A stretch of 64,000 bases of DNA, from the NCBI GenBank assembly GCA_004764695.1, contig SMSO01000031.1:3457048-3521047 (forward strand), in the 5' to 3' direction. The stretch comes from Schizochytrium sp. TIO01. Lineage: Eukaryota > Sar > Bigyra > Thraustochytrida > Thraustochytriidae. The notes under the pieces are model-generated. The model did no database searches. It was given only the letters and a program-made list of their open reading frames with translations, and was not told where the DNA came from. The number at the start of each line of letters is the position of its first letter. Positions within the stretch are counted from its first letter, which is position 1. Shown one piece after another: positions 1-63,106 of this stretch. The translations under genes were made by a program, and so were the position numbers.

Positions 1-2079
1 GGTATAAACACCAGATCAAAAGAATCGAACCGAGATCCGGAGGGTGACTGGAGGGAAACCGAGGAAGACCACAAAAATCCTCGCTCGCATTATGCTTCTC
101 GTGATGATGATGCATCAGTTGATTTACACCAACCTCCAAACCGACTAGAGTCCCCTGACCCTCGGATTTCTGCAGATCCCTCCAAGCTTCCTCGGGAGTT
201 AAATGTACCTCCGTTGCAATTTTCCAGCCGTGGTGATTCTTCGAAAAAACGGACCGATGAAGCAGACAGTAACGAACAGTATCCGACAAGCCGTGGGGAT
301 GAAGAATTTCCCACCGTTGACAATAGCTCTCGATTCGCTGAGACAAAATCACCACATTCCAGTATCGCGCAATGTCCTGCTTCAGTAAGAAGTCAGGATT
401 CAATGCAAAAATCTCCTCGGAGCGCATTGAACAATGGAGGAAAGAATGATGCCGGTCGTGTTAGTGAGAATGGCGATGTTGATGATAGCACAGATGTGCC
501 TGGAAAAATATCGCATCGTGAACCAACAGGAGATCCACCAAGAGCCGTTGATAGGGAAGGATCTTTTGATTTTCGGCAAATAGATGATAGCTTGGATGAT
601 GGGAATAGTCGAGGGCCACGAATTGTGAAACCATTAAAGAGCACTGCTGAAAACAGCAATGAACCTGCACCAAATGTTTCAATAAGAATCCCAAGTGACA
701 TCGATACCAACGAAGAGAGCATTGATAAAGATATTACAGAACGGGTTGGTGAGATCGGTAAGAGTGGCTTAGTTAGGGTGTATACAATCACTTATAACGC
801 TGGTTGGGCATGGAATTTGCCAAAAAAACTATTGAAAGATCTTATCCCATTTGGATACGATATTTATTGTATTGCGCTACAAGCGCTGAACATGGATTCG
901 AGGAGTGTTTGTGGAGCTATTATGGCTGTAATGCCGCATGGGTTTGCTGAATTGCGTACGGTATCAGTGAACAATATGCACACAGTCGTTCTGGCCCATG
1001 CTGTATTGTTCCCGCTTCTTTCTGATATATCAAGTGACTACATACCGATAGGGTGTGATGATGATACAAACAACAATAGAGATGCCGACATAGATAGTAC
1101 CGTACCGGAGCTCACAACTTCTGCGCAAAACCGAGAGAGTCGTTTGAAGGGCGCACAAGCGGTGACCTTTGCGCTATTGACAAAGACTTTTCTATTTGTC
1201 AACTGTTTCCTAGAGCCAAGCCATAGTGCAAGTGGCGATCTATCGCGCAAATTCAATTATTCTGAAGTTAACTCACGCGTGCGAGCACCAACAGGGAGGT
1301 ATGAGTTGAGTAAACCTTTAGCTAAACGCGCTGATTATGTTTGGTGGATGGGTGGTTTCAATTATCGCCTTAATATGAACGACTACAGCAGTGGGTGGAG
1401 ACTGCTTCAGAGTGGCAAGCTTTCCGAGCTCTTGAGGAAGTTCGATGGACTGCATAATAGTGGGATGTACACGGACTATGAAGAAATGCAAATAAGATTC
1501 CCTCCAACATACCCATATACATATACAAGACGTGATTCCTCGCCCAAAATACCAGTGCTTGATGAGGAAAAGTTATCCGGCTTGGGTGAGGAAGAACCTT
1601 CTATTGATACTGGGAAGGCAAAGACAAATCAAGATAGCGATGAAGCAACGCCTAGAGAAGAGGACACTAGAGATGAAGAGGTCGAAGGCCCAGCTAACTT
1701 TAGCGATGCTGAATTTCCTGCATGGTGTGATCGAATTTTGGTCAATCAAATCCTTTCTGGAGAAGAAGGTCAAGAGTCTCGATCAGAGCGCAGGGCCTTG
1801 GATTACATGAGCTCTGATGGGCAACACTTTTCTTCTCATCACGCAGTTTATGCCCTATTCGAGGTTCGAATTAGCGAGCCTCGAAGCCTTTTCTTAACTT
1901 GGGCTGGGAAGAACGCTATTTTCCAAGAGGCATTAGAAATTGGATTTGAGGAAATAAACAAGCATGATATTGCTGAGAAGAAAGCTACTCAAAAGGCCGC
2001 TCAAAAGGCCGCCCAGAAGAACCGAAAAGTTGCTGCTATTAAAGACAGCACGAAGTCGAAGGTGTGCGCCATTCAGTAG
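1..2079 (+). CDS. Inositol polyphosphate 5-phosphatase homologue, probably inactive, 5' partial
   Basis: The frame is open from base 1 with no stop, so the gene starts outside the window; 692 codons are seen. The N-terminal third is polar and acidic. From codon about 258 the 5-phosphatase fold is recognisable: YTITYNAGWAWN, DIYCIALQAL, KGAQAVTFALLTKTFLFVN, WWMGGFNYRLN (about 447-457), and PAWCDRIL (about 573-580), followed by FSSHHAVYALF. Active family members hydrolyse the 5-phosphate of phosphoinositides or inositol phosphates using a Mg-binding Glu (LQE), His (NxHL), Asp (GDxNYR) and Asp-His (SDH). Here these read LQA, NCFL, GGFN and SSH, so four catalytic positions are changed while the Asn residues, the PAWCDR motif and the final His remain. 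An insert of about 60 acidic residues lies before PAWCDR. The end is lysine-rich and finishes CAIQ, a plausible prenylation box. I infer a membrane-anchored pseudophosphatase. Family assignment is firm; loss of activity is inferred. Confidence 0.85.
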   Translation, partial: GINTRSKESNRDPEGDWRETEEDHKNPRSHYASRDDDASVDLHQPPNRLESPDPRISADPSKLPRELNVPPLQFSSRGDSSKKRTDEADSNEQYPTSRGDEEFPTVDNSSRFAETKSPHSSIAQCPASVRSQDSMQKSPRSALNNGGKNDAGRVSENGDVDDSTDVPGKISHREPTGDPPRAVDREGSFDFRQIDDSLDDGNSRGPRIVKPLKSTAENSNEPAPNVSIRIPSDIDTNEESIDKDITERVGEIGKSGLVRVYTITYNAGWAWNLPKKLLKDLIPFGYDIYCIALQALNMDSRSVCGAIMAVMPHGFAELRTVSVNNMHTVVLAHAVLFPLLSDISSDYIPIGCDDDTNNNRDADIDSTVPELTTSAQNRESRLKGAQAVTFALLTKTFLFVNCFLEPSHSASGDLSRKFNYSEVNSRVRAPTGRYELSKPLAKRADYVWWMGGFNYRLNMNDYSSGWRLLQSGKLSELLRKFDGLHNSGMYTDYEEMQIRFPPTYPYTYTRRDSSPKIPVLDEEKLSGLGEEEPSIDTGKAKTNQDSDEATPREEDTRDEEVEGPANFSDAEFPAWCDRILVNQILSGEEGQESRSERRALDYMSSDGQHFSSHHAVYALFEVRISEPRSLFLTWAGKNAIFQEALEIGFEEINKHDIAEKKATQKAAQKAAQKNRKVAAIKDSTKSKVCAIQ

Positions 2080-15639: not shown

Positions 15640-16702
15640 TTTGTAGAAACCTCTGAAGAGAAATCAATGTTTTCGGATGCCCAAATTATGATATGCTGCT
15701 TTGAGGAGGCTCTGATATGAATCCTCGTGCCCTTCTCTACTGTCTTGTGAGATAGGGTTATTGGACCCTATATTTTATGAGGAGTCAAGCAGACGAAATG
15801 GCCTCGGGACTGGCTGGATGCCTCTATGCACGCAGGTTTCGAGGCCGCGGCACCGGTATGGACGCCAGTAAAGGGTCCCAGAAGGCCTTTTCTGGGCCAG
15901 AGTGCTCTTTTGCGCTCTGTAACGCCACCTCAGCGCCAGAGCAACCCGAGCCCGCCTTCGAGCCGACGTTGATCGAAGTATTGATTGAGCGACGATGGAG
16001 GTGGACTCCGTTTGCCAATTGTCCACCCAAGATCACTATTATTCATTACATTTACCTATATTCCATTTTATCCTTGATCTTGGGATGTATAAGAGCTCTT
16101 ACATAAAAAACATAGGATAGTCCTATTTAAGGACTACCTAGTACCGAGTACCTGGTGGTGTAGCCTTGCAGAGCAGATCTAAAGAGAAATACAACAAATG
16201 AGGAGGCGGTGGAGTACATGTCAAAGAGCTTAGAAGACGCCCTAAAAGCACCAGATAGTGGATGCTGCGAATTTGAATACTATCTACTGCTTATGCAAAG
16301 ATATTCCTTCGGAGGCTGAACATCGAAATGTAGAGAACATGAAAAACGTTGAATTTTTTTTCCACCGGCTGATACAACACAAATTATATTTAGAATAATA
16401 AGGACAGAGTGAAAACCGACAATGCTAAGGAAAGATAAGATGATTCATAGCAGGTACTATTGTCTAATCCTAAGATCGACAAAGTTTATTATAGTGAACA
16501 AAACGCTTGAAGAGCAACCTTGATAACTTTCACCATCACTTCATACTCCAGATACCAAGGTTTCGCTCCTTGTAGGTCAAGGTAGCTCACACTCAAGCTA
16601 AGGGTTATTTGGGTTCGAGGTTGCTGAGTGCTTGTTAAGTTTTGGCAGATAGTGTCAGTTGAAGTTCCTTGCCAAAGACGCGTACGATTGGCGGAAAATA
16701 CC
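15640..16702. promoter_or_regulatory. Divergent upstream region of the TTL-family gene and POC16/WDR90
   Basis: About 1.06 kb. A GC-rich islet at about 15775-16025 is open in frames on both strands and contains a hairpin with CCCAGAA at 15877-15883 and TTCTGGG at 15890-15896. A second perfect hairpin has TAGTCCT at 16118-16124 and AGGACTA at 16130-16136, followed directly by CTAGTACCGAGTACC. No gene is assigned. Confidence 0.4.
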
Positions 16703-19700
16703 ATGGCATCTGCAAGGAGCTCGACAGCGTCGAGCATTTGGCAACGGCCTTTTGTTGATGTCTTTAAACTTGTGGGCCTAAGCACGGGTGTTTGGTCTAA
16801 TTGTGAGCGTGAAGGAAACGTAAAGCAAGTTCTGGACAAGGCTATTGGCAAAAATGTGGTTCGAGTTGCAGGAGCTGTTGCTACAGCGAACACCCTGCAG
16901 ATCCCGAGCAAGAAGCACACCGGGCTTGGACTTACGGGAAGTTTTATCTACGTTCAAGTTCGCCCTTTGCCGCATCAGCTATTTACCATCATCATTGAAG
17001 TTCTTTGCAAGGACGGGACTGCAACACGCATCACCTTGAGCAATATGTTTAGAGTTTATGGTCGCAGAGGCCCACGAATTCTTGTTCCGCTTGATCTAGC
17101 AGACGAATGGTACACTGTAGGTCTTGATGTGCCAAGCTTGCTAGACCGCTATAAAGATCCAGCAAGACCCAGCGAGTACTGGTGTTTAAAGTCAATCACT
17201 GTGCATGCAGGTGTACAGTTGCGTAATGTATATACTTCTGAAACACCATATCGTTCTACACCAGACCTCAATGAAGATAGTGAAATGGTCAATCTGGAGT
17301 CCATGCCTTCCGCAATGCAAATGTCCAGAACTTCAACGAACACGGTGATTTGGGCACCCTCCATCCCCCAAATATCAACATATTCTTCCGCGACATCGGT
17401 GCCAATTCGCTCACTTGCAGCTGGCCAAGGAGATGGCCTTCCTTCTCCTCTGATTACACCCGACGCTGCCAGTGTTGCAAGTAAAGATGTTTTCTCTGTC
17501 AATAACAAATCCAAAACATCTAGATTTGAAACCGGGCAAACACCAATGAGTAACTCGAGTGGTAGCAGCTCGAGGAGAAAAGGAGCTCCTGGATCATCTA
17601 CAAGAAGCCAATCTCACCAAACAAATGGTTCTCAGAAGTTTTCACCTCGTATTGGTTTGTCACAGAGAGCAATTAGTGAAAACATTCATGGGGAGGGCAA
17701 CCAACTTGCCAGTGAGCCCCGAAGGATTAGTTCCATCAAAAAGGCATCGCCGAACAATATGCGTAAAGGGTCACAGTCATCAGCAATGAAGCCATCCTCA
17801 CCTTCCTCTGTAAGAAATTCACCATCTATCGCCAGCTCAACAGCCCCCCCTGCATTACGCCCAGACCCTATTATGCGTCTTCATACCTATGTTGGACATT
17901 CCTGCGCCCTTGATAGTGCAACACCTATCTGGTCTCGCGATGGCAAGAGCATCATTTACGCGAGTGCATGTAACATAATTATAGGTAAGGTTGACAACCC
18001 GAAACGGCAGCAGCGCATGCTTTTTGGACATACCGCCCGCGTGAACTGCCTAGCGTTAGATACGATTGGGTCTACTTTAGCATCTAGCCAAGATGGTCGA
18101 AACCCGGTTATACGTCTATGGGATACGGAGTCTGGTAGATGTACTTCTGTACTTGCTACGTGCCCTGGAGGCGATCTTCGTTCGTTAGATTTTAGTAGTG
18201 ACGGGAGTTTTCTTTGTGCTGTTGGCCGTGACGAGCATAATCGTATGCAGCTTTGTGTATGGAGCATCTCAGGGGTTCAAAGTAAGCGAACTGTTGGTAG
18301 CACATCCACTGTTGTCCAACATCAGGGCCAGCAGGGGGCATATTCGGCCGATACTCGGATTTCGTTAGTGGCACGACAGACCTGCGAATTCGATATTGCA
18401 CGCGTTCGCTTTTCCCCTTATGACGCATATCAGCTAGTATCTGGTGGCCGAGAGAATATCCGATTCTGGCGCATTCGCAACCGGCACCTTCCTGGCACTC
18501 CGGTGGTACTGAACGATTTTGCTCGTAAAGCAACATTTACTGATCTGGCGTTCGAGAGCTCATTCGGAGGCACAACACCTGGAATCAGTGGCTCAGCTCC
18601 CGGATCAACACTTGATAAACGTGTTTTCTTTGCCACTAATCTTGGAACAGTGATGGCTGTCCATTATGAGCGTCGTGCAGTTTTATGCATCTATCGGCTT
18701 CACGATGGACCAATTCACGCCATTGCGATTAACGAAGGATTCTGCGTTACCGCTTCAGAGGATCAGCATGTTCGTGTATGGCCGTTAGACTTTGGAGACT
18801 TTTTCTTGGAAGCACGCCACGAATCTCCCGTTGGGTCAGTTGATGTGTCTCCTGATGGGTTGGAGATTCTCACCAACACAATAGCCGGGGTTATGGGTGT
18901 TCTTCATGTTTCATCCCATTCGTACACTGCTAAACTACGTGCGCATGGAGGAGATGTATCTTGCATTAGTTTTCGCACAGGTCCCCACGGTGAGAATGAA
19001 ATGGCGACAGCATCTTCAGATGGCACAGTTCGTGTTTGGTCAGTGCCTGGTTGTGAGCAGATGTACGAATTTGCATCTGATGAGGACGAGGCGCTATGTT
19101 GTGCGTACCATCCAGATCCGAACCAAAACCTGCTCGTCTGCGGCTACCGGTCCGGGGCTCTTCGCGTTTTTGATGTATGCGCTACAGCTCTTATTTACGA
19201 GTACAAACAGCACGTTGGAGCGGTATATGGCGTGGGGATCCACGCCAATGGGCATTGCGTGTTCTCCCTTGGTGATGATGGTCACATCTGTGTATACGAT
19301 AGCTCTCAATTTTTTCAACCGACCAAGATGATTCCTCTTGATGAAGCTGGGACATCTTTTGGTGTTCCAAAAATAGAGAACAAGAGTTGGTCCCCTAAAT
19401 GTATGGCACTTGATCCTACTGGGAAGCTTCTTGCTGCGGTTCATCCGATCAAGCAAGAAATTGTTTTAGTTAATACTAAACCAGGGCTGAGCCTCGTGGA
19501 TATGCATGTTGTTATGCAGATTAAGCGCGCGTCGCGTAGTTTTGGTCGAGAGGCTGTGTTCTTGGCATTAACCTTCTCTTCTGATGGTACAGAACTGATT
19601 GCCTCTACGGCCGATAATCGCATTATAAAATATCGCATATTGTATAGCTCTGATCAAGGATGGGATGCAACACTAGTACGTGATACACATTCCATGCACC

Positions 19701-22243
19701 CTGCTTCTGTCAGTGCTTTGGCGCTTAGTCCACATGGTTCGGACTATCTTGCTACTTCAGGGAGTGATAACATGCTACAGATATGGGATGCGCGTTTAAG
19801 TGGCGCAGCGCCAACATTGCAGCGGTTTATTGGACATGCATCGGAAGTCCTTGATTCTAATTTCTCACAAGATGGGCGTTTCTTTGCTTCTGTCGGTCGG
19901 GACCAGACAATGCTCTTGTGGGAGTTTTTGGGGGAGCCAAGTGAGAATCCTTGGGCAGCAGCAGATGACATTGCAATCGGATGCATCACGTCGGGACAGA
20001 ACCAGGAATGCCTTGTAGATGAGCTGACCTTTGACTCTCAAACTGAAATAACAGAGGAAGGTATGAAATATCACCCAAGCCTTGAGGAGGTAAACACGAT
20101 GAGACATGCTGAAGTAACCGGTCTGAATGTCGTTGGGACATCGTTGTCTCCTGCATCACCTCTCACTACAGAAAGTTCCACGAGTATTGCATGGGCTGAT
20201 GGATCGAACGTAAAATTTTGCCCACCAAGACGGCAGCTTGCTGCAGACGACACAGAAAATCTTAAAGCAGCACGCTGCATCCCCACTCATACGGATAGTC
20301 TCCGAGTCACTGGTTTGAATATCTCGTCAGCATCAGTCATGGGATGGCACCCGAGCTCAGGTCTATTTGTTTATACATGTGGACGCCACGTGATCTTTGA
20401 AGATCTTAGTTCTCAAGCTCAGGAGACTTTTGTAAAGCATCATAGTACGGTGTCAGCCGTCACGGTAGGAGCTTCTGGTCGATATGTCGCTACAGGGGCA
20501 GGTCTTGCAACTGCTGGGGGCGCTGCAGCAGCTTCTGGCGAAGGAAAATGCGCCGAAATTATTATATATGAGGCAGCAGACAATATCTGCGTTCTTCATG
20601 TTATGATTGGACACCTGCATGCTGGAGTTCAAGCTCTACAGTTTTCATCTGATGAAAAAAGGTTGGCATCTCTTGGCGCCGTGGATAATGGGATGCTTTG
20701 TGTCTGGGATGTGGAGCACGGTACCTTGCAAGCGAGCCATCGACTTGTAGATGGCATTGCATTTGACTTACTGTGGACCTCTCTTTCATCTCTCGTAACT
20801 GTAGGTCTGTGTGGACAGCTAGCATTTTGGGATGTGCCTGCAGAGCATGGAAGTAAATTGTCTTTGGACACGATCCAACACTTGCGCCGGCTGAACGACG
20901 ATGGCACGCATCTCACATGTGTGGCGCGTGCTCCACGTTGGCTAACTCGTGCACACGAGGCTGACTGCGTTTTTGCTATCGGTGATACTCATGGAGAGAT
21001 CTATGTTATGGCGTTACCAGAGCGTATCGAACTAGCAAGATGGCAAGCTGCGGAAGATGAAGTAACCGCAATTGCATGGTGCGAAAAGCATATTGTTGTT
21101 GGTGTCTGTACGGGTGTGGTCGTTTTGTGGGATGTGAGTGAAGAGTATCCTGATGCTGGCTGTATTCCTGCGCATGTTTTTAGCTATAAGAATCCAATTG
21201 TAGATTTATGTTGGCAAGCGCAGGGTAACGATGGCTTAGTGGCAACTGCTGCTAGTTCGTGCATATATACCAGCGTGGTACATGAGCAACTAGTTCCGAT
21301 TCTGCGTGGACATGAACACCCACTCGATGAACTATGCATTAGTTCAAATGGTAGTCTCCTGGCAACTTGTTCGAAGCGAAGCACATCAGGGATCCTTCTT
21401 TGGGAACCATCTACAATGGAAGTACTCGCTCAAGTAAGCATTGGTGATGAGTTCACCAGAATTTTGAGTGTAGGATTTCTCCACCATCCTGAAGATGCAA
21501 TGCATGCTGTGCCCTCGTTTTTAAATACTCCTACGATGTGCGTCTTGGGCTGCTCAGATGGAAGCCTTCGTGTAGTTGACTTCGCTTCATCAGGGAACGT
21601 TTCAAGCATGCAAGTATTTGCACCGTCTGATAGCGTTGTTTCTGTTTGCGCTATTGGATCTTGGATTGCTGCAGCCTCGTGCTTTGGAGAAGCTGTAATG
21701 GTTCGAGTCAATCTTGAAAATGGTACTTTGGACGAGTCCATACGGATTCCAGTGAGTTCTCAAGATCACAGTAAGGGAGGGAGGGCAGCTTTTCTTTGCG
21801 CAGATACCCGAATGCTGGATATCTTTGCCGTCGCTGACAAAAAAGGAACAGTTACTCTTTTCGAATTAGGTGCTGCACATGTGGAGCCTGTGTTGAAATT
21901 GTCACAGCTGGATTTTAAATTCGTAGGATTTGCAAATTCAGACTCCGATGTCCTCATTTGCGCGACAGAGAATTCGGTCTGCCAAATTGCGTTTGGAGTA
22001 TCGCCTGACGCCAGCCTTTCTGAAGAAGTACTTCTTCCTCCTGGCGAATTAATTACAGCGCTTGCAGGTGACTTGCTAGGTACGGACCGCGGCAGAGTTC
22101 TTCGATTTGTTAATGGGACCCGGCTCGAAATTATTTATGACGGCCACATCAGTGCTGTGAGCAGTCTTGTTGTAGATTTGAATAAAGGTCTAGTATTCTC
22201 TGCCTCGGATATCGAGGTAGTACGGTCTACTATAATTCAATAA
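16703..22243 (+). CDS. WDR90: POC16/WDR90 centriole WD40 protein
   Basis: A 1,846-residue protein, close to animal WDR90 in length. Residues about 10-185 form the CFA20-like (DUF667) domain: WQRPFVDVFKLVG, VVRVAGAVATANTLQIPSKK, GLTGSFIYVQVRPLPHQLFT and, at its end, LRNVYTSE, all matching the WDR90/POC16 N terminus. This domain binds tubulin in the inner junction or inner scaffold of centrioles and axonemes. A Ser-rich linker follows (about 190-390), then many WD40 repeats to the end, with repeated GH...S.DG...A..D..V..W patterns. The protein ends inside a terminal GHISAVSSLVV repeat as in homologues, so it looks complete. The ATG at 16703 sits in a good context (ACCATGG). The gene implies a lineage that builds centrioles or flagella. 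Confidence 0.93.
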   Translation: MASARSSTASSIWQRPFVDVFKLVGLSTGVWSNCEREGNVKQVLDKAIGKNVVRVAGAVATANTLQIPSKKHTGLGLTGSFIYVQVRPLPHQLFTIIIEVLCKDGTATRITLSNMFRVYGRRGPRILVPLDLADEWYTVGLDVPSLLDRYKDPARPSEYWCLKSITVHAGVQLRNVYTSETPYRSTPDLNEDSEMVNLESMPSAMQMSRTSTNTVIWAPSIPQISTYSSATSVPIRSLAAGQGDGLPSPLITPDAASVASKDVFSVNNKSKTSRFETGQTPMSNSSGSSSRRKGAPGSSTRSQSHQTNGSQKFSPRIGLSQRAISENIHGEGNQLASEPRRISSIKKASPNNMRKGSQSSAMKPSSPSSVRNSPSIASSTAPPALRPDPIMRLHTYVGHSCALDSATPIWSRDGKSIIYASACNIIIGKVDNPKRQQRMLFGHTARVNCLALDTIGSTLASSQDGRNPVIRLWDTESGRCTSVLATCPGGDLRSLDFSSDGSFLCAVGRDEHNRMQLCVWSISGVQSKRTVGSTSTVVQHQGQQGAYSADTRISLVARQTCEFDIARVRFSPYDAYQLVSGGRENIRFWRIRNRHLPGTPVVLNDFARKATFTDLAFESSFGGTTPGISGSAPGSTLDKRVFFATNLGTVMAVHYERRAVLCIYRLHDGPIHAIAINEGFCVTASEDQHVRVWPLDFGDFFLEARHESPVGSVDVSPDGLEILTNTIAGVMGVLHVSSHSYTAKLRAHGGDVSCISFRTGPHGENEMATASSDGTVRVWSVPGCEQMYEFASDEDEALCCAYHPDPNQNLLVCGYRSGALRVFDVCATALIYEYKQHVGAVYGVGIHANGHCVFSLGDDGHICVYDSSQFFQPTKMIPLDEAGTSFGVPKIENKSWSPKCMALDPTGKLLAAVHPIKQEIVLVNTKPGLSLVDMHVVMQIKRASRSFGREAVFLALTFSSDGTELIASTADNRIIKYRILYSSDQGWDATLVRDTHSMHPASVSALALSPHGSDYLATSGSDNMLQIWDARLSGAAPTLQRFIGHASEVLDSNFSQDGRFFASVGRDQTMLLWEFLGEPSENPWAAADDIAIGCITSGQNQECLVDELTFDSQTEITEEGMKYHPSLEEVNTMRHAEVTGLNVVGTSLSPASPLTTESSTSIAWADGSNVKFCPPRRQLAADDTENLKAARCIPTHTDSLRVTGLNISSASVMGWHPSSGLFVYTCGRHVIFEDLSSQAQETFVKHHSTVSAVTVGASGRYVATGAGLATAGGAAAASGEGKCAEIIIYEAADNICVLHVMIGHLHAGVQALQFSSDEKRLASLGAVDNGMLCVWDVEHGTLQASHRLVDGIAFDLLWTSLSSLVTVGLCGQLAFWDVPAEHGSKLSLDTIQHLRRLNDDGTHLTCVARAPRWLTRAHEADCVFAIGDTHGEIYVMALPERIELARWQAAEDEVTAIAWCEKHIVVGVCTGVVVLWDVSEEYPDAGCIPAHVFSYKNPIVDLCWQAQGNDGLVATAASSCIYTSVVHEQLVPILRGHEHPLDELCISSNGSLLATCSKRSTSGILLWEPSTMEVLAQVSIGDEFTRILSVGFLHHPEDAMHAVPSFLNTPTMCVLGCSDGSLRVVDFASSGNVSSMQVFAPSDSVVSVCAIGSWIAAASCFGEAVMVRVNLENGTLDESIRIPVSSQDHSKGGRAAFLCADTRMLDIFAVADKKGTVTLFELGAAHVEPVLKLSQLDFKFVGFANSDSDVLICATENSVCQIAFGVSPDASLSEEVLLPPGELITALAGDLLGTDRGRVLRFVNGTRLEIIYDGHISAVSSLVVDLNKGLVFSASDIEVVRSTIIQ

Positions 22244-50517: not shown

Positions 50518-52108
50518 GAATCACATGCAACAGTTGAGATTAACTCAACAGAGGTTTTTTGGCGCTATCTTCAATTTTGTTGATCTCATGGGTGGTTTGT
50601 ATAGCATCCCATTGATTGTCAAACCAAGGTGGGTGATTTGCACCGCGTGCTACCTTCAGTCATAGCATGGTCTGGTGATCATCAATTGTTAAGATTACTT
50701 GGTACTGTGCTTTAATTTCTTTTATTCATACTGTCAAGTCTTGGAAAGAGAGCCAACGCCATCCAGACTTCCAAAGAAACAATTTAAACTACACTGAGAA
50801 CCATAAAGTGAAGTGCTCCTTCCCTGGCATTTTCTTTTTTGCAGGCGCATAATTTCACCCAACGTTGGCATTTCTCATATTATACTACCGAGTGCACCTC
50901 AGCTTACACAGATTCTTTTTTAAAATATATAATATACTTGACGATACCCAACAACATACTCCAAGTTGCTAAATTTCTTTGCTAGTTTATTATACGAATA
51001 ATGAAAATCCCAAACGCATAATCCCGTATATTCAAATGAAGGTCTGTTCCCATCAAATCCACAGAAAAGTAGTTTAACCTATAAGAGGCATTTGTCACCC
51101 TATTAGATAGTGTTAATGCTCCTCTTAGGCAACGTCCTGCTCACATATCTTTCATTCATTAAGTGACACATAGCTTGTCACCTCCTACGATACCAAAAGG
51201 CTCTCCGATACCATTTGTTGATGGTGTTTATCTTGCCTACAGCATGCAACAGCGACCATTCAAGTTAAGCTCGCATAGGCTGTATTCCACAAGTCGAATC
51301 TTGGCAGTGCACGAGTTGTGAGCTATGTGACTTTATGAGTGAGATTGTACTTTCCAAGTTTTGTAAGGAAGAAATCTTTTTCTTTTTCCTTTCTAACGCC
51401 ACGTGTGGTCAAACGAGAGACGCAATGCTTCTTGCCAATTTAGTGAGGCAGCCAACTGACCTATCAACCACCATGAAACATGAAACCAAATCAAGCGCGA
51501 ATGATCTTCTTCTTAAGCCAGCCCGCGATAATACATTTATTCAGTATTTTCCCTCAAAAGCTCCGAACTTCATGACGGAGTCAGTAAATTTATTTTATTT
51601 ATTTCTTAATTTTTAAAATGAAACTAATCATGATATTATATATATAATTGTATTTAAATAATTATTATTTTAATAATAATAATAATAATAATAATAAAAC
51701 TCTAGCTAGAGAACTAAAAATAGTTTTTATGTTAACTTTAATTTCTAAAGGATTAATCATCATATTAATAACCACAATAGCAATGATAATAAGTAATAAT
51801 TTAAAAGTAGTTTTTAGCATTGTACTTTGAAGAAGTACCTAATTATCTTAATAGTCTTTCGTCATAAATGTGAAAGAAGAAAAAATCAATCAACGAAACG
51901 AAGTGAAAACAATCTAACCTTGAAGACAAGATTGCTTCATCGTGTAATAACAGTGACAATACTCATTGTAGCAAAACCAATACAAAACTAGAACCCCATC
52001 CGCACGCCTGCGACGACGTGGTCACGTCGCATTGTGCGGAAGGCGCGGGACACTCGGCTCACGTGGGGAACTGCGTCTTTTCCAGCGAGACGAAGCTGCA
52101 AAGATCTC
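50518..52108. other. Intergenic region with an extreme AT-rich islet
   Basis: About 1.6 kb without a gene. At 51575-51830 base composition drops to almost pure A/T, including an AAT tract at 51675-51702. No recognisable protein or RNA is encoded there. Confidence 0.5.
51675..51702. repeat. AAT trinucleotide tract
   Basis: About nine AAT copies within the AT-rich islet. Confidence 0.9.
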
Positions 52109-55100
52109 ATGGAGACTGGCAACCAATCAGGTTCAAACCTATGGCCCGTGTCTGAGGTACGAGAGCCGAGTTCATCAGGATCTCCAAGCTCTGGGTGGAG
52201 CGGGAAAGGCGGCCAAGATGCAGAAACTGACGAAGATCAAGACCTTAACTGGGATCAACAGCACCAGCGGCGAAATAATGAGAATCTTGAGACGGCTCGA
52301 CTGTTGGAGCAACAATCGATTTCAGGTATTTCAGGGTACCAAAGTCTGCCAAGTTTGGCGGATGCTGCGGATAGCGTGTTCGCAAATGTCAGCGCAACAC
52401 ATTACTCAGATGTGAGCGATATAAGCGATGATGGGATGGTGGTGCAGCGAAGGTTGCATGCAGTTCGTGTCGCGGCAATGTACATAAAGGCTGCGCTCTT
52501 TGATCGCAGAATTTCGTATCTCACAGACCCGGAGTCATTATGGCTTGTGCGAATCTATGAGAGCACCGGCATGCGCATGCTTGTTGATGCAGCGCTTATT
52601 GCATACTTACTTATTACGTTTTATGAGAAAAACGATGGCACACAACCAGTGTGGACATATATTGTAGAAGCCCTGTCCTGGAGCTACCTTGCACTGATGT
52701 TTTCGCTGCGTATTCGATTCACCGACTTTAAACAGCTGCAGCGCAGCCGCTTCGCTAAAATCCATGCAACAGCCCTTGCAATTGCATTAGTAGATCTCTT
52801 GGCGAGTGTTTTCTTTGCTGTCATATGCAAAAAACCTTACTATCGATTTGCCCGCGTTGTACGACCAGTGTTTCAGCTTGAGTATTCTCACCTTGTCCGA
52901 CGCCGCGTGCTCGATATATTACGAACATGTTGGCGCGTGAGGGCGGTATTTTTATTGCTGGCTTTCGAAATCACCTTCTTTGCGGTTGTTGCGATTTTTC
53001 TGTTCTACGGCTCACCAGAAGGTGACCAGTTCTTTAATTCTATGGGACAATCCATTGTAACCCTGGTCATTCTTTTGTCGACATGTAATTCACCTTCAGT
53101 GATGGTTCCTGCTTACAAATCAAATCCATGGAGCGCTTTATTCTTTGTTTGTTATTTGGTGGTCTCTGTTTTTCTAATGCTGAACTTGACTTTAGCTGTC
53201 ATTTATAAAGAGCATCGACGTCATTTATTATGGGAAGCAAAACGTCAGGCGATTCGTAAACGCGCTTGCACCTCTGCAGCATTCCGCGTGCTGCGACAGG
53301 AATACATCCAAAGCATGGAGCCCATTCTGCGTCCAACAAATCTACGTGGGGTCGGTCTTCCCGATGGACTCGTGGTAGACTTAATGATTGAATTAGGTGT
53401 CCGTGTTGAAGATGCCCCAGTGCTCGTCACTCTTCTGGGCGATGGTCGCCGACCGGGCTTTGTATTTCGTGACGAATTTGAGGATGTTCTCCTTGTAGTG
53501 CACTTCACAATTAAGGAACATGTTTCTGAGGAAGAAGAAGTAGAGGCCATACTCGGAGAAAATGATATGGTTGCTGCTGCAGATGCAGAAGCAGTTGCTA
53601 CGGCTGACCGTGTTAGGGCTACTGAGGATGCTGAGCAAAGCACTGACCAGGATGGAAATGTTGGGGAGAATACCTACACAAGCCAGGGCACAAACAACAG
53701 CCAGTATTTTTCAAATTTCAACTATAGCAACGGCGGCACGCCTACGAGTTCTTTGTATGGTCTTGAAAATGAGTTTGACACTGGAAGTATTGCTCCTGGC
53801 CTCCACCACCCATACTACAATGGCCGCCGTACCCATGAAGGTAGCACTGCTAATATGAATACTAGCTCGAGATCAATGCGGTCCTCATCTTTTACACGTA
53901 GTTCTGATGCCCCTCGAACACCACTAACGGAGAGCGACTTTGACGAATCGACACCCACTTCAATGCGAACAGCTCTCAAAAAGGCGGCCCGAATGTCTTC
54001 TAGCCGACGCATGGCGATTCGTGTTGTAAAACACAGGACCTGGGTACCCTTCTTTGGTAAGGTTCAGACACTAGACTTTGCTGTCAACGCGCTACTAGTA
54101 GTTTCTGGATGCATCACAGTTACCGCCCTTACGATTGACATTGACGTCATCATTTATGATGATCCCCTGCCGTTCCGCATCATCAACACGTGCTGCACGC
54201 TCTTATTCTCCGCCGAAGTAGCGATCCGGATGCATGCTGCTCGCCCACGGCGCTTCTTTGAGTCTTCTTGGAATACATTCGAATTTTGTGTTGTGGTTTC
54301 TTCCCTAGTGGGAACGCTCTCGCAAATTCTTCGACTGCGTCTCGGTGGTCACACGCATCTCTTTTTGTTTTTACGAAAGCTTCGTTTACTGCGCTTACTG
54401 CGATCGGTTTCACAATTTCGCCTCCTTACAGAAATGATTGTGTACCTGCTTCCAGCTCTGTATGTATTTTCTCGAGTCATTTTCTTTTTTATGTACATCA
54501 CCGCGATTGTAGCTATGGGATCGCTCAAGATGCAGCTTGAAAATGAGGCCGAATTCGGTGCTACAAATTTTATCACTTTTGCCAATTCTTTGCTTACACT
54601 CTTTCAGCTCTTAGTCGTAAATGACTGGAATATGACAATGAATGGGTATTATAAGGCAACTGGCAACGCTCTGGTATATGTCTTCTTCATTCTCAATTAT
54701 CTCTTTAGTGTTATCGTTGTCCTCAATGTCATCACATCGTTCGCACTGGAGGCCCTCGACAAGAGTATCTCGGAGTTTGCTCTTTTGCAGGATGCTAACC
54801 CGAGCAACCCCGATGAAACCTCCTTCATCAATGGTAGCGATAGTCAAGAGAAAATTATACGTGAGCAGGCACGTATAATGGAGCGGCGTCATAACTCACG
54901 TCGCGAGCGTGAGCTATTCAGTCGTTCGAAGGCAGGTTCTGGTCATGTTCATGAGGAACGTGAACTCAAGCGCACATTTAGTTACGTAGAAAGACTTCCA
55001 ACTTTGCGTAAGGTGGGCCGAGTCATCCGAACCTCGCCTCGTGAATCGCACTTGGTTCGGCTTTTGCGCGAGGTCTTTGACAACGAGATGGACGAGCCTT

Positions 55101-55192
55101 CGATGGCAGAGGTTAATCGAGAACTTCATCGCAACGGTTTGGCAAACCTACTTGCTCGCCCCAATCAATCATCCCAGTCCCAGGTCACGTAA
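52109..55192 (+). CDS. Two-pore channel (TPC) family cation channel
   Basis: A 1,027-residue protein with two six-helix ion-channel domains, the TPC arrangement. Domain I begins near residue 150. Its pore is FNSMGQSIVTLVILLSTCNS followed by PSVMVPAYKSNP (about 305-335), closely matching the TPC pattern F-S...LLTTANNPDVMMPAY. The last helix is VSVFLMLNLTLAVIYKEHRR. A 350-residue linker is acidic, then Ser/Tyr/Asn-rich. Domain II starts near residue 665; its S4 contains RKLRLLRLLRSVSQFRLL with regularly spaced Arg. Its pore is ITFANSLLTLFQLLVVNDWN (Asp839) and the last helix is FSVIVVLNVITSFALEALDK. TPCs conduct Na or Ca across vacuolar or endolysosomal membranes under voltage, lipid or NAADP control. 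EF-hands of the plant type are not evident. The ATG at 52109 is the first in frame. Confidence 0.92.
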   Translation: METGNQSGSNLWPVSEVREPSSSGSPSSGWSGKGGQDAETDEDQDLNWDQQHQRRNNENLETARLLEQQSISGISGYQSLPSLADAADSVFANVSATHYSDVSDISDDGMVVQRRLHAVRVAAMYIKAALFDRRISYLTDPESLWLVRIYESTGMRMLVDAALIAYLLITFYEKNDGTQPVWTYIVEALSWSYLALMFSLRIRFTDFKQLQRSRFAKIHATALAIALVDLLASVFFAVICKKPYYRFARVVRPVFQLEYSHLVRRRVLDILRTCWRVRAVFLLLAFEITFFAVVAIFLFYGSPEGDQFFNSMGQSIVTLVILLSTCNSPSVMVPAYKSNPWSALFFVCYLVVSVFLMLNLTLAVIYKEHRRHLLWEAKRQAIRKRACTSAAFRVLRQEYIQSMEPILRPTNLRGVGLPDGLVVDLMIELGVRVEDAPVLVTLLGDGRRPGFVFRDEFEDVLLVVHFTIKEHVSEEEEVEAILGENDMVAAADAEAVATADRVRATEDAEQSTDQDGNVGENTYTSQGTNNSQYFSNFNYSNGGTPTSSLYGLENEFDTGSIAPGLHHPYYNGRRTHEGSTANMNTSSRSMRSSSFTRSSDAPRTPLTESDFDESTPTSMRTALKKAARMSSSRRMAIRVVKHRTWVPFFGKVQTLDFAVNALLVVSGCITVTALTIDIDVIIYDDPLPFRIINTCCTLLFSAEVAIRMHAARPRRFFESSWNTFEFCVVVSSLVGTLSQILRLRLGGHTHLFLFLRKLRLLRLLRSVSQFRLLTEMIVYLLPALYVFSRVIFFFMYITAIVAMGSLKMQLENEAEFGATNFITFANSLLTLFQLLVVNDWNMTMNGYYKATGNALVYVFFILNYLFSVIVVLNVITSFALEALDKSISEFALLQDANPSNPDETSFINGSDSQEKIIREQARIMERRHNSRRERELFSRSKAGSGHVHEERELKRTFSYVERLPTLRKVGRVIRTSPRESHLVRLLREVFDNEMDEPSMAEVNRELHRNGLANLLARPNQSSQSQVT

Positions 55193-60525: not shown

Positions 60526-61326
60526 ATGGGCCTCGACACGACTGCTCTTGTGGCAGGCGGTATCGCCGGTTTTGCCGTAGATACCAGCCTCATGCCTCTG
60601 GATTCACTCAAGACGCGTCTCCAGTCCCCCATGGGTTTCCGTGCTGCTGGTGGATTCTCTAACCTCTTCGCTGGTGTTGGTGTGGCTGCTTTGGGTTCTG
60701 TGCCTGGTGCTTCGCTGTTTTTCTGTACCTACGAGACCACTAAGTCCACCCTCTCCGGCCACATGAGTGACACTAAGGCTCAGATGGCTGCTGCATCTCT
60801 CGGTGAAATGGCTGCTTGCCTCATCCGTGTGCCTGTTGAGAACATCAAACAGAAGCGCCAGGCGGGTCTCTACCCTGACAACGGCAGCGCTGTGCGTGGT
60901 ATTGTTGGCAAGCAAGGTTACGCTGGTTTCTACACGGGTTACTGGACCACTGTCCTTCGTGAAATTCCCTTCTCCATGATTCAGTTCCCGCTCTGGGAGG
61001 CCATCAAGGTCGAGATTGGACGTCGTCGTGGAGATGGAACTGTCCACTCGTGGGAATCTGCGGCTGCCGGTTCGATGTCTGGAGCGTTCGCTGCTGCGCT
61101 CACCACCCCTCTCGACGTTGTTAAGACCCGCCTCATGCTTGGCCATGACCCCAAGGGAGTGCCTTACGATGGAGCCGTCTCTACATTGCAGAGAATTGTT
61201 CGCGATGAGGGCGCTGGCAAGCTCATGTCTGGTGTGGGACCCCGTGTGTTCTGGATTGGTATTGGTGGCTTTGTGTACTTTTTCGCATACCAAAAGACCC
61301 GCTATTTAATGGAAGGATCTAAGTAA
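60526..61326 (+). CDS. SLC25A26: Mitochondrial S-adenosylmethionine carrier
   Basis: A 266-residue carrier, matching SLC25A26 in length. It exchanges cytosolic S-adenosylmethionine for mitochondrial S-adenosylhomocysteine in the inner membrane. Three repeats are present with signatures PLDSLKTRL (from residue 24), PVENIKQKR and PLDVVKTRL. Subfamily-specific sequence includes VDTSLMPLDSLKTRLQSPMG near the N terminus, GSVPGASLFFCTYETTK and RVPVENIKQKRQAG. The first repeat's short loop and the VENIKQ variant in repeat 2 are typical of SAM carriers. The ATG at 60526 was chosen. Codons are strongly C-ending, suggesting high expression. Its coding end overlaps the convergent PNGase A gene by 8 bases. 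Confidence 0.93.
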   Translation: MGLDTTALVAGGIAGFAVDTSLMPLDSLKTRLQSPMGFRAAGGFSNLFAGVGVAALGSVPGASLFFCTYETTKSTLSGHMSDTKAQMAAASLGEMAACLIRVPVENIKQKRQAGLYPDNGSAVRGIVGKQGYAGFYTGYWTTVLREIPFSMIQFPLWEAIKVEIGRRRGDGTVHSWESAAAGSMSGAFAAALTTPLDVVKTRLMLGHDPKGVPYDGAVSTLQRIVRDEGAGKLMSGVGPRVFWIGIGGFVYFFAYQKTRYLMEGSK

Positions 61327-63106
61327 TTTCGAGCCGTATGTGGCTCTCTCTTTTTTCTTCAACTAACTTTGTGCAAAAACTTGCGCCGCAAGGCACAACT
61401 TGAAGCTCACCACTATCGCAAGTCATCAAGCTGCTATTTCCTTGTTCTGTCACATTCCCACCTCGAACCTGGCCTTGTCTCTCGAGGATACGGGAACCGT
61501 TTACTTGAGATTCTGTACGCTGAAAGCAGGGTTGGACATTGTCATCTAATTGCCTGTCCCACACAGTGATAGATTGGGTAGCGGAGGAAGCTCTGTGCCC
61601 CCCTTTGGACATATTGTAATAAGCACGTCCGCTATAGGTGCTCTCCAGGGCAATGTAGCCCGTACCTTTGCGACTTTCACGGGAGATAAATCGTGTCTCG
61701 TTCACATTTGCTGCAATCCAACCATCCCCATCTTTTTCCATCACCGCAAATTTGTATATTTGATGCTCGATAGCGTCCACAGTTTGCAATGTAGTGTGCA
61801 AATGCCCATAAACTACATCATCTTCGACTAAATTTGACATTTCAATATGGACGTGGTCATCCCCATTGGACATGTCGTGTGATTGAGTTCGAGAGGTACT
61901 TCCAGATAGTGTTGTCATCTCAGTTGTAATATAAGGTGAGTTCCAACTCCGCGGCGGCCCAACATGCAAACCTAGACTTTTGTATGAGCCTGGAGGACGG
62001 TGATAAACGATAAGTACTGGGTCTACATACCACACCCCCTTTTCACTGTTCTTTAGAACTTCTATCTCCAAAGTATGGTCTTCTGATTTGCCCCGCACCC
62101 TTTCTAGGAGAAAGCTCACGTCAAGCTCATAGGGCGCTACGTCAAGCGCAAGAATACCTGTCAAAGGTCTCCACAGAAGAGGGTTGATGCCTCCAGTGTA
62201 CACCACTGGGAACGGAACGATGGCAGTGACTGGGCTCCCGTCAAAGTGGACAATAAACTCTCTAAAAGGAGAGCCGCCAGGAGCTTCGAGATAATAAAAC
62301 TCCTCGGAGCCACCGTGCCCAGAAGCAAACAAGAGGATCTTCAGCTGGCAATCATTCTGTACACATGAGCGAAGGGCCTGGCTTGGAAATTTCACTTGCA
62401 GGCGCTCAGTCCCAATCAACGTTCCCCCCTCCCAGGGTTTCGTAGGATCTTTAAAAGGGGCACGCAAAGCAATTGCCATAGGTAAAGGCTGTCTCCTTAT
62501 GCCTCCGTGATAGATTAACGCTCTGACAGTTGCATTTATCACGCCTGTGTACGGACCTGTAACAACGTTCGGAATGTCAAGAATAGCCTGGAAAGGAGCT
62601 CGACGGCCCACGATGCTGCGTGCAAGCTCTGTGATATCCCGTTCCACAAACCACCTGATTTTCCCTGGGTTGAGTGGCTCGGGGGTAGACAGGTGAAGGA
62701 GTTTGAGATTATCAATCCAGAAACCCCCAATCCGATCAAACTGGCGGCCTTTGACAGTAGCATTGAGTTCTAACACAACCATGCTCACTGTATGCACATC
62801 GTGAGCACAGCCAGGTACTGAAACTTTCTGTACATGAGCTTTTCGTGATAGCCCAAAGTGAGCGTTAGTTACAAGATCCACGACGCAGGGTTCTACATTT
62901 TGAGGGCGTTGTAGAGGAACCTCAACAGCTATAGGGTCCGTCTTGTACGAATCATCATCTAGATTGGGTATATGCCCGAAATCAAGATTAGATCTGTATC
63001 CACGACTTTCTGCCTCTACCCAACAGAAGCTAACAAACAGGTAAAGCTGGAGTGCTAGACAGCAAAAGAAGCAGTATCGAGGTCTCGGGACGGAGGCCAT
63101 GACCAT
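61319..63106 (-). CDS. Peptide-N4-(N-acetyl-beta-glucosaminyl)asparagine amidase A-like secreted protein
   Basis: A 595-residue protein with a hydrophobic N terminus (CFFCCLALQLYLFVSFCWVE, about 12-31), read as a signal peptide. The PNGase A domain is recognised by FDRIGGFWIDNLKLLHLSTP, ILLFASGHGGSEEFYYLEAP, PFREFIVHFDGSPV and PFPVVYTGGINPLLWRPLTG. Members release N-glycans from glycopeptides and act in acidic or secretory compartments. Several N-glycosylation sites (such as NATV, NETR, NMSK) support passage through the ER. The C-terminal 180 residues form a more variable beta-rich domain. The first of two close ATGs (63106, 63100) is used. It is convergent with the SAM carrier and the two stops interleave. 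Confidence 0.88.
   Translation of the reverse strand: MVMASVPRPRYCFFCCLALQLYLFVSFCWVEAESRGYRSNLDFGHIPNLDDDSYKTDPIAVEVPLQRPQNVEPCVVDLVTNAHFGLSRKAHVQKVSVPGCAHDVHTVSMVVLELNATVKGRQFDRIGGFWIDNLKLLHLSTPEPLNPGKIRWFVERDITELARSIVGRRAPFQAILDIPNVVTGPYTGVINATVRALIYHGGIRRQPLPMAIALRAPFKDPTKPWEGGTLIGTERLQVKFPSQALRSCVQNDCQLKILLFASGHGGSEEFYYLEAPGGSPFREFIVHFDGSPVTAIVPFPVVYTGGINPLLWRPLTGILALDVAPYELDVSFLLERVRGKSEDHTLEIEVLKNSEKGVWYVDPVLIVYHRPPGSYKSLGLHVGPPRSWNSPYITTEMTTLSGSTSRTQSHDMSNGDDHVHIEMSNLVEDDVVYGHLHTTLQTVDAIEHQIYKFAVMEKDGDGWIAANVNETRFISRESRKGTGYIALESTYSGRAYYNMSKGGHRASSATQSITVWDRQLDDNVQPCFQRTESQVNGSRILERQGQVRGGNVTEQGNSSLMTCDSGELQVVPCGASFCTKLVEEKRESHIRLEIT

Follow-up and report, generated by a model that had tools for sequence, protein, structure and literature searches.

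A pseudo-5-phosphatase at the left edge of the window

The window analysed here, a stretch of 64,000 nucleotides (C30:3457048-3521047), opens with a gene whose product belongs to the inositide 5-phosphatase family and which, judging from its residues, has almost certainly lost catalysis. On balance, we favour the view that selection has kept this pseudo-5-phosphatase as a prenylated, membrane-tethered scaffold or adaptor that works without catalysis. The homology of the domain, the loss of the catalytic residues and of several residues that grip the substrate, the intact frame, and the CaaX-like end can all be read from the sequence.

Within the window, the gene (1-2079, +) forms a frame of 692 amino acids that runs off the left edge and stops with TAG at 2077-2079. 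In the genome (64.06 Mb searched, in 37 contigs), the frame runs on upstream, and the coordinates given in the first-pass annotation were therefore a partial view of the gene. The full frame has 868 codons from stop to stop and 863 amino acids counted from the first ATG (C30:3456535), with the start of the open reading frame 513 bases upstream of the window. The part inside the window corresponds to residues 172-863, which leaves the first 171 residues upstream of it; residue r of the full-length protein has the window coordinate -512 + 3(r-1). A run of 868 codons without a stop has a chance of ~1e-23 in random sequence of the same composition. The codon-usage score of the gene, 0.0017 against values from -0.005 to 0.106 in a set of 21 genes, is uninformative as a coding test. 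The first 249 residues in the window are rich in Ser, Asp, Pro, Arg, and Glu, and from this composition, the linker at 1-765 (+) is probably disordered. It is followed by the 5-phosphatase domain with its degenerate active site (Exo_endo_phos2, PF22669; 766-1872, +), whose limits were set by eye on the alignments. A single-sequence AlphaFold prediction for window positions 748-1950 gave an unusable model (mean pLDDT 35.1, pTM 0.21).

The window has the gene content of a eukaryote, perhaps a stramenopile. Nine of its proteins were scanned, and the families found include AAR2, RanBP1, tubulin-tyrosine ligase, and the mitochondrial carrier. There is a homologue of peptide-N-glycanase A at 61319-63106 (-) (PNGaseA, E 6e-42) and a protein with two Ion_trans stretches at 52034-55192 (+), which we presume may be a two-pore-type channel. 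ARAGORN reports a tRNA-Ser with the anticodon ACT at 19719-19815 (+), inside the open frame 16628-22243; this is probably a false positive.

Family membership and paralogues

The relationship with the 5-phosphatases, proposed in the first-pass annotation, is borne out by two profile comparisons. The full protein matches PF22669 with 70.7 bits (E 2e-19), against a curated cut-off of 27, and this is its sole Pfam domain over the cut-off. The hhalign comparison with the paralogues gives a probability of 99.1 over 290 columns. In the PDB, the best match of the window protein is OCRL (4cmn, E 8.8e-9), followed by SHIP2 chains and by 1i9y, which is named there as a phosphatidylinositol phosphate phosphatase. 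NCBIfam gave no match for the protein. Viral contigs scanned with the window protein returned no pattern match, and scanning them with the alignment of the six paralogues returned 13, of which none was confirmed; the same alignment gave 30 pattern matches in bacterial and archaeal genomes, again with none confirmed.

The search of the host genome with the PF22669 profile gave 11 matches that make up seven genes, in a reading of six frames that ignored introns and may miss intron-split genes. The pseudo-5-phosphatase is one of the seven and is the weakest of the 11 matches (56.3 bits). The other six genes all have LQE or TQE, xHL or xHF, GDxNYR, and SDH. Among these paralogues, one carries an OCRL-type ASH + RhoGAP domain, one has two SH3 domains, and two have C2-like matches under the cut-off. 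Core identity between the pseudo-5-phosphatase and the paralogues is 22-28%, and it has no near relative among them. The tree of the seven genes gave no single nearest paralogue. The pseudo-5-phosphatase has the longest end branch of this tree (5.23).

Loss of the catalytic residues

We aligned the protein with the six paralogues of the same genome using MAFFT in two modes (L-INS-i and E-INS-i) and, separately, by hhalign profile alignment. The four catalytic substitutions listed in the first-pass annotation hold in both MAFFT alignments and in hhalign, and the Glu, His, Asp, and Asp that are replaced are present in all six paralogues. LQE has become LQA, the Glu, which we take to be a Mg2+ ligand, being replaced by Ala (GCG, 883-885, +). 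NxHL has become NCFL, with Phe in place of the His that contacts the 5-phosphate (TTC, 1207-1209, +), and GDxNYR has become GGFNYR, with Gly in place of the general-base Asp (GGT, 1354-1356, +). SDH has become SSH, with Ser in place of Asp (TCT, 1834-1836, +), and the next residue, His, is kept. The roles of the second and third positions come from the structure of synaptojanin with PIP3, in which, according to the available text of PMC7781601, D730 serves as the general base, the water is oriented by N732, and H689 and H859 contact the 5-phosphate. The same text gives the family motifs as WxGDxN(Y/F)R and P(A/S)W(C/T)DR(I/V)L. For the first, the pseudo-5-phosphatase reads WMGGFNYR, without the general-base Asp. 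For the second, it reads PAWCDRIL, and the PAWCDR motif at 1717-1734 (+) is kept, as had been noted earlier. The excerpted text of PMC5550278 terms SHIP2 with the substitution D607A (the catalytic base) catalytically inactive, and the SHIP2 chain 5okn, which has Ala at that motif position in the PDB, aligns to the changed general-base site.

The first-pass annotation had raised two artefacts that might mimic such losses, a shifted alignment and a sequencing error. The first is ruled out: Ala, Phe, Gly, and Ser stay in register with Glu, His, Asp, and Asp in all three alignments, and inspection of the flanks by eye showed no stand-in Glu, His, or Asp. As for the second, to reach the substitutions from codons for Glu, His, Asp, and Asp takes no fewer than six nucleotide changes, in four separate motifs and with two of the codons needing two each, which makes a base-calling slip an unlikely source, and we rejected it.

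The changes are not confined to these four positions. Of the 38 columns without variation among the six paralogues under E-INS-i, the pseudo-5-phosphatase keeps 24 and changes 14; with L-INS-i, it keeps 22 of 34. Leaving out each paralogue in turn (E-INS-i), we find 39 to 45 columns that are identical in the remaining five; the omitted paralogue matches 38 of them in every case, and the pseudo-5-phosphatase matches 25 to 27. We compared the active-site columns (N437, E466, H574, D623, N625, R627, D748, D783, and H784 in full-length numbering) with the remaining invariant columns of the E-INS-i alignment. By this grouping of our own, 4 of 9 active-site columns are changed versus 10 of 29 others; no concentration is seen, and a loss aimed at catalytic columns only was therefore rejected. 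Since the losses are spread over the domain, general divergence accounts for them no less well than targeted inactivation.

The C-terminal tail and the N-terminal segment

The protein ends in CAIQ, a CaaX-like box (2065-2076, +), preceded by a lysine-rich tail with 10 Lys, 1 Arg, and 3 Asp/Glu in 36 residues (1957-2064, +). Given the composition of the window protein and residue classes of our own choosing, a CaaX-like end would arise by chance with a probability of ~3e-4. Two of the six paralogues, both with intact catalytic residues, also have such ends (CVIS and CSLQ). These CaaX-bearing paralogues are found at L013 2295-4895 (-) and L016 790-3936 (-). The genome also has three genes over the cut-off for the prenyltransferase family PF00432, with open frames of 380-427 codons; three genes are expected for the beta subunits of the farnesyl, geranylgeranyl-I, and Rab geranylgeranyl transferases. 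The CaaX-like ends of the two paralogues and the three PF00432 genes make the CAIQ end credible, and the earlier reading of the lysine-rich CAIQ tail as a plausible prenylation signal is upheld. A terminal Gln in a CaaX box favours farnesyl. The tail is plausibly prenylated, probably by farnesyl.

Upstream of the window, residues ~99-160 of the protein weakly match repeats in very long frames of the same genome. The best of these matches has an E of 0.0027 and 30% identity; not counting the gene itself, there are 39 with E no higher than 10. The matching frames, of 1818-3228 codons, lie on C33, C13, C3, C31, C5, and C30, and several contain tandem matches. We made a profile of the segment and the seven of the 39 repeat matches for which loci were given; four of the seven come from one frame on C13. 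Against the PDB, this eight-member profile finds PHF20 and PHF20-like chains (E 4.7e-5 to 6.6e-5), and its two top matches have names other than PHF20: 2ldm ('Uncharacterized protein', 1.5e-5) and 3p8d (3.5e-5). Six of the eight profile members match Pfam Tudor_5, and the segment of the pseudo-5-phosphatase is not among the six. On its own, this segment matches PF23044 (E 0.0034) and Agenet (E 0.021), both under the cut-off, and a phmmer search of the PDB at E 10 gave no match. Because the segment itself is under all Pfam cut-offs and finds nothing in the PDB, a Tudor-like domain is likely rather than certain.

The CaaX-like ends of the paralogues also bear on the suggestion that the protein regulates an active paralogue. 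By analogy with the myotubularin pseudophosphatases, it would dimerise with a CaaX-bearing 5-phosphatase, localise it, or activate it. The 5-phosphatases are not known to require heterodimers, and this counts against such a role, as does the lack of a near relative among paralogues that share 22-28% core identity with the protein. On the other hand, the CaaX-like boxes on two catalytically intact paralogues make co-location with the pseudo-5-phosphatase possible, and MTMR5 and MTMR13 provide a precedent among inositide pseudophosphatases in the available text of PMC10944118, PMC6716428, and PMC6737944. We regard the regulation of a paralogue as doubtful but worth keeping in view.

Substrate-gripping regions

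A membrane-bound inositide sensor was the other role put forward in the first-pass annotation; it would bind PI(4,5)P2 or PIP3 without cutting it. The CaaX-like tail would suit such a sensor. The pseudo-5-phosphatase also retains the Asn and Arg of GxFNYR, the Tyr of PTY, the Lys of KG, PAWCDR, and the His of SSH, and with this Asn and Arg, the Tyr, the Lys, and the His in place, some ligand binding is possible.

The positions that grip the phosphates argue against a sensor that uses the phosphatase pocket. In synaptojanin, the passages available from PMC7781601 have Y784, K798, and R800 binding the 4-phosphate and N668 and K669 binding the 1-phosphate. All six paralogues have a basic residue directly after PTY or PTF (four Lys, two Arg), whereas the pseudo-5-phosphatase has Pro (PTYP). 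Positions 4 and 2 before PAWCDR, where synaptojanin has K798 and R800, are Asp and Glu. Each of the two is basic in 4/6 paralogues, and no paralogue lacks a basic residue at both. The basic motif that interacts with the 4-phosphate thus reads Pro, Asp, Glu. The loop between PTY and PAW has 68 residues and a net charge of -12; the corresponding loops of the six paralogues run to 16-24 residues, with net charges of +1 to +5. This acidic loop (1513-1716, +), which replaces the basic 4-phosphate loop, starts with the Pro after PTY and ends in D-A-E-F just before PAWCDR. The Asn of GNKG, a 1-phosphate ligand, is Leu according to hhalign; with MAFFT, an Asn falls ahead of a 24-residue insert instead. 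Where active relatives have the last part of the second lipid-chain loop and GNKG, the protein carries an acidic insert (1054-1146, +) that ends in the RL of RLKG (role of the loop from the excerpt of PMC7781601).

An intron may account for the length of the acidic loop or for the second lipid-chain insert. The acidic loop contains 66 GT..AG pairs of at least 40 nt, of which 25 are in frame; none of them removes D-A-E-F, and an in-frame intron was rejected as the source of these residues before PAWCDR. In the second lipid-chain insert, 3 of 17 pairs are in frame.

With gripping residues lost and the 4-phosphate loop turned acidic, the sensor loses much of its structural basis, and the earlier proposal is weakened to the point that we consider it improbable. 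As residues for cutting the substrate and for gripping it have both been lost, the pseudo-5-phosphatase is probably a membrane-anchored scaffold rather than an enzyme. A prenyl-anchored scaffold is placed ahead of the sensor as the leading model, and a regulator of a paralogue would be a special case of it.

Decay or selection

An unexpressed gene, or a recent pseudogene whose frame is still open by chance, would fit the longest end branch of the seven, the change of about one third of the otherwise invariant columns, and the uninformative codon score. The first-pass annotation had held that the long intact frame speaks against a decayed gene, and a rough estimate agrees with it. We used a neutral model on the gene's own codons, with a transition weight of 2 and Poisson counts, which assumes that the ancestor had the residues in question and leaves out frameshifts. 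Under this rough model, the expectation is about 96 stops for each substitution per site, and the chance of the frame surviving stop-free falls to 5% at d = 0.031. At this distance, the probability of at least 4 changes in 10 active-site codons is ~0.006 and that of at least 14 changes in the 38 invariant columns is ~9e-7. From these figures, neutral decay of the frame seems very unlikely. The 868 codons are intact at a divergence at which, by the same rough estimate, neutral drift gives many stops, and the C-terminal box and several fold motifs are retained. We therefore give the pseudogene very little weight.

We give almost no credence to neofunctionalisation, in which the old pocket would bind a different small ligand, by analogy with Cimex nitrophorin. 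There is a precedent (PMC4773796, in its available text), and salivary nitrophorin chains are among the PDB matches of paralogue C31b, but the 14 PDB matches that the window protein has with E up to 10 include no such chain, nor do those of its domain, and the sequence suggests no ligand.

A proposed prenyl-anchored scaffold

For the pseudo-5-phosphatase we infer an absence of activity, prenylation, a membrane location, and protein binding. Under the scaffold model, the lysine-rich CAIQ tail, prenylated and probably farnesylated, would hold the protein at the membrane. The degenerate 5-phosphatase fold, the acidic loops, and the Tudor-like N-terminus would bind proteins. Inositides would not be hydrolysed, and their headgroup would probably not be gripped in the usual pocket. 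A more specific version, which we put forward tentatively, is a non-secreted, prenyl-tethered adaptor that combines a Tudor-like segment with a dead 5-phosphatase domain and in which protein binding has replaced inositide binding. Its role would perhaps be to place or tune the paralogues with CaaX-like boxes, making it the equivalent, among 5-phosphatases, of the myotubularin pseudophosphatases.

If the gene is maintained, there would be a membrane-targeted dead 5-phosphatase beside six catalytically intact relatives in one genome. Such a genome would be a clean system for asking what the 5-phosphatase fold does without catalysis.

Comparison with known systems

Pseudoenzymes are well documented among kinases and myotubularins. 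Inositide pseudophosphatases are already known too, as is the derivation of nitrophorin from the 5-phosphatase fold. For dead 5-phosphatases, the literature searched yielded only the insect nitrophorin, a descendant of an inositol phosphatase; the nitrophorin of Cimex binds haem. The myotubularins have a cysteine-based 3-phosphatase fold that is unrelated to the 5-phosphatase fold. The inositide pseudophosphatases named in the available text of PMC10944118, PMC6716428, and PMC6737944 are myotubularins. The excerpt of PMC2175518 concerns protein pseudophosphatases, and that of PMC11311582 deals with SHIP1 as an adaptor and touches on pseudoenzymes as a class. On dead 5-phosphatases, the available passages of a review of inositol signalling in oomycetes (PMC9694693) offer no help.

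MTMR5 and MTMR13 resemble the pseudo-5-phosphatase in having a dead inositide-phosphatase domain in an intact protein (excerpts of PMC10944118, PMC6716428, and PMC6737944). They differ in that they bind the active MTMR2, whereas the pseudo-5-phosphatase is without a known partner. The nitrophorin of Cimex lectularius is alike in being an inositol-phosphatase descendant that now has another function (PMC4773796, in part), but it is a salivary NO donor, whereas the pseudo-5-phosphatase, with its CaaX-like tail, gives no hint of a ligand of this kind. Compared with the active 5-phosphatases (OCRL, INPP5B, INPP5E, SHIP1/2, and synaptojanin; PF22669), it shares the domain, GxFNYR, PTY, PAWCDR, and the His of SDH. 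It is unlike them in the replacement of four catalytic residues and of the phosphate-gripping loop and in its probable Tudor-like N-terminus. According to the available text of PMC7860134, a prenyl moiety keeps human INPP5E at the ciliary membrane, and this C-terminal prenyl anchor is the counterpart, among the active enzymes, of the CaaX-like end of the pseudo-5-phosphatase.
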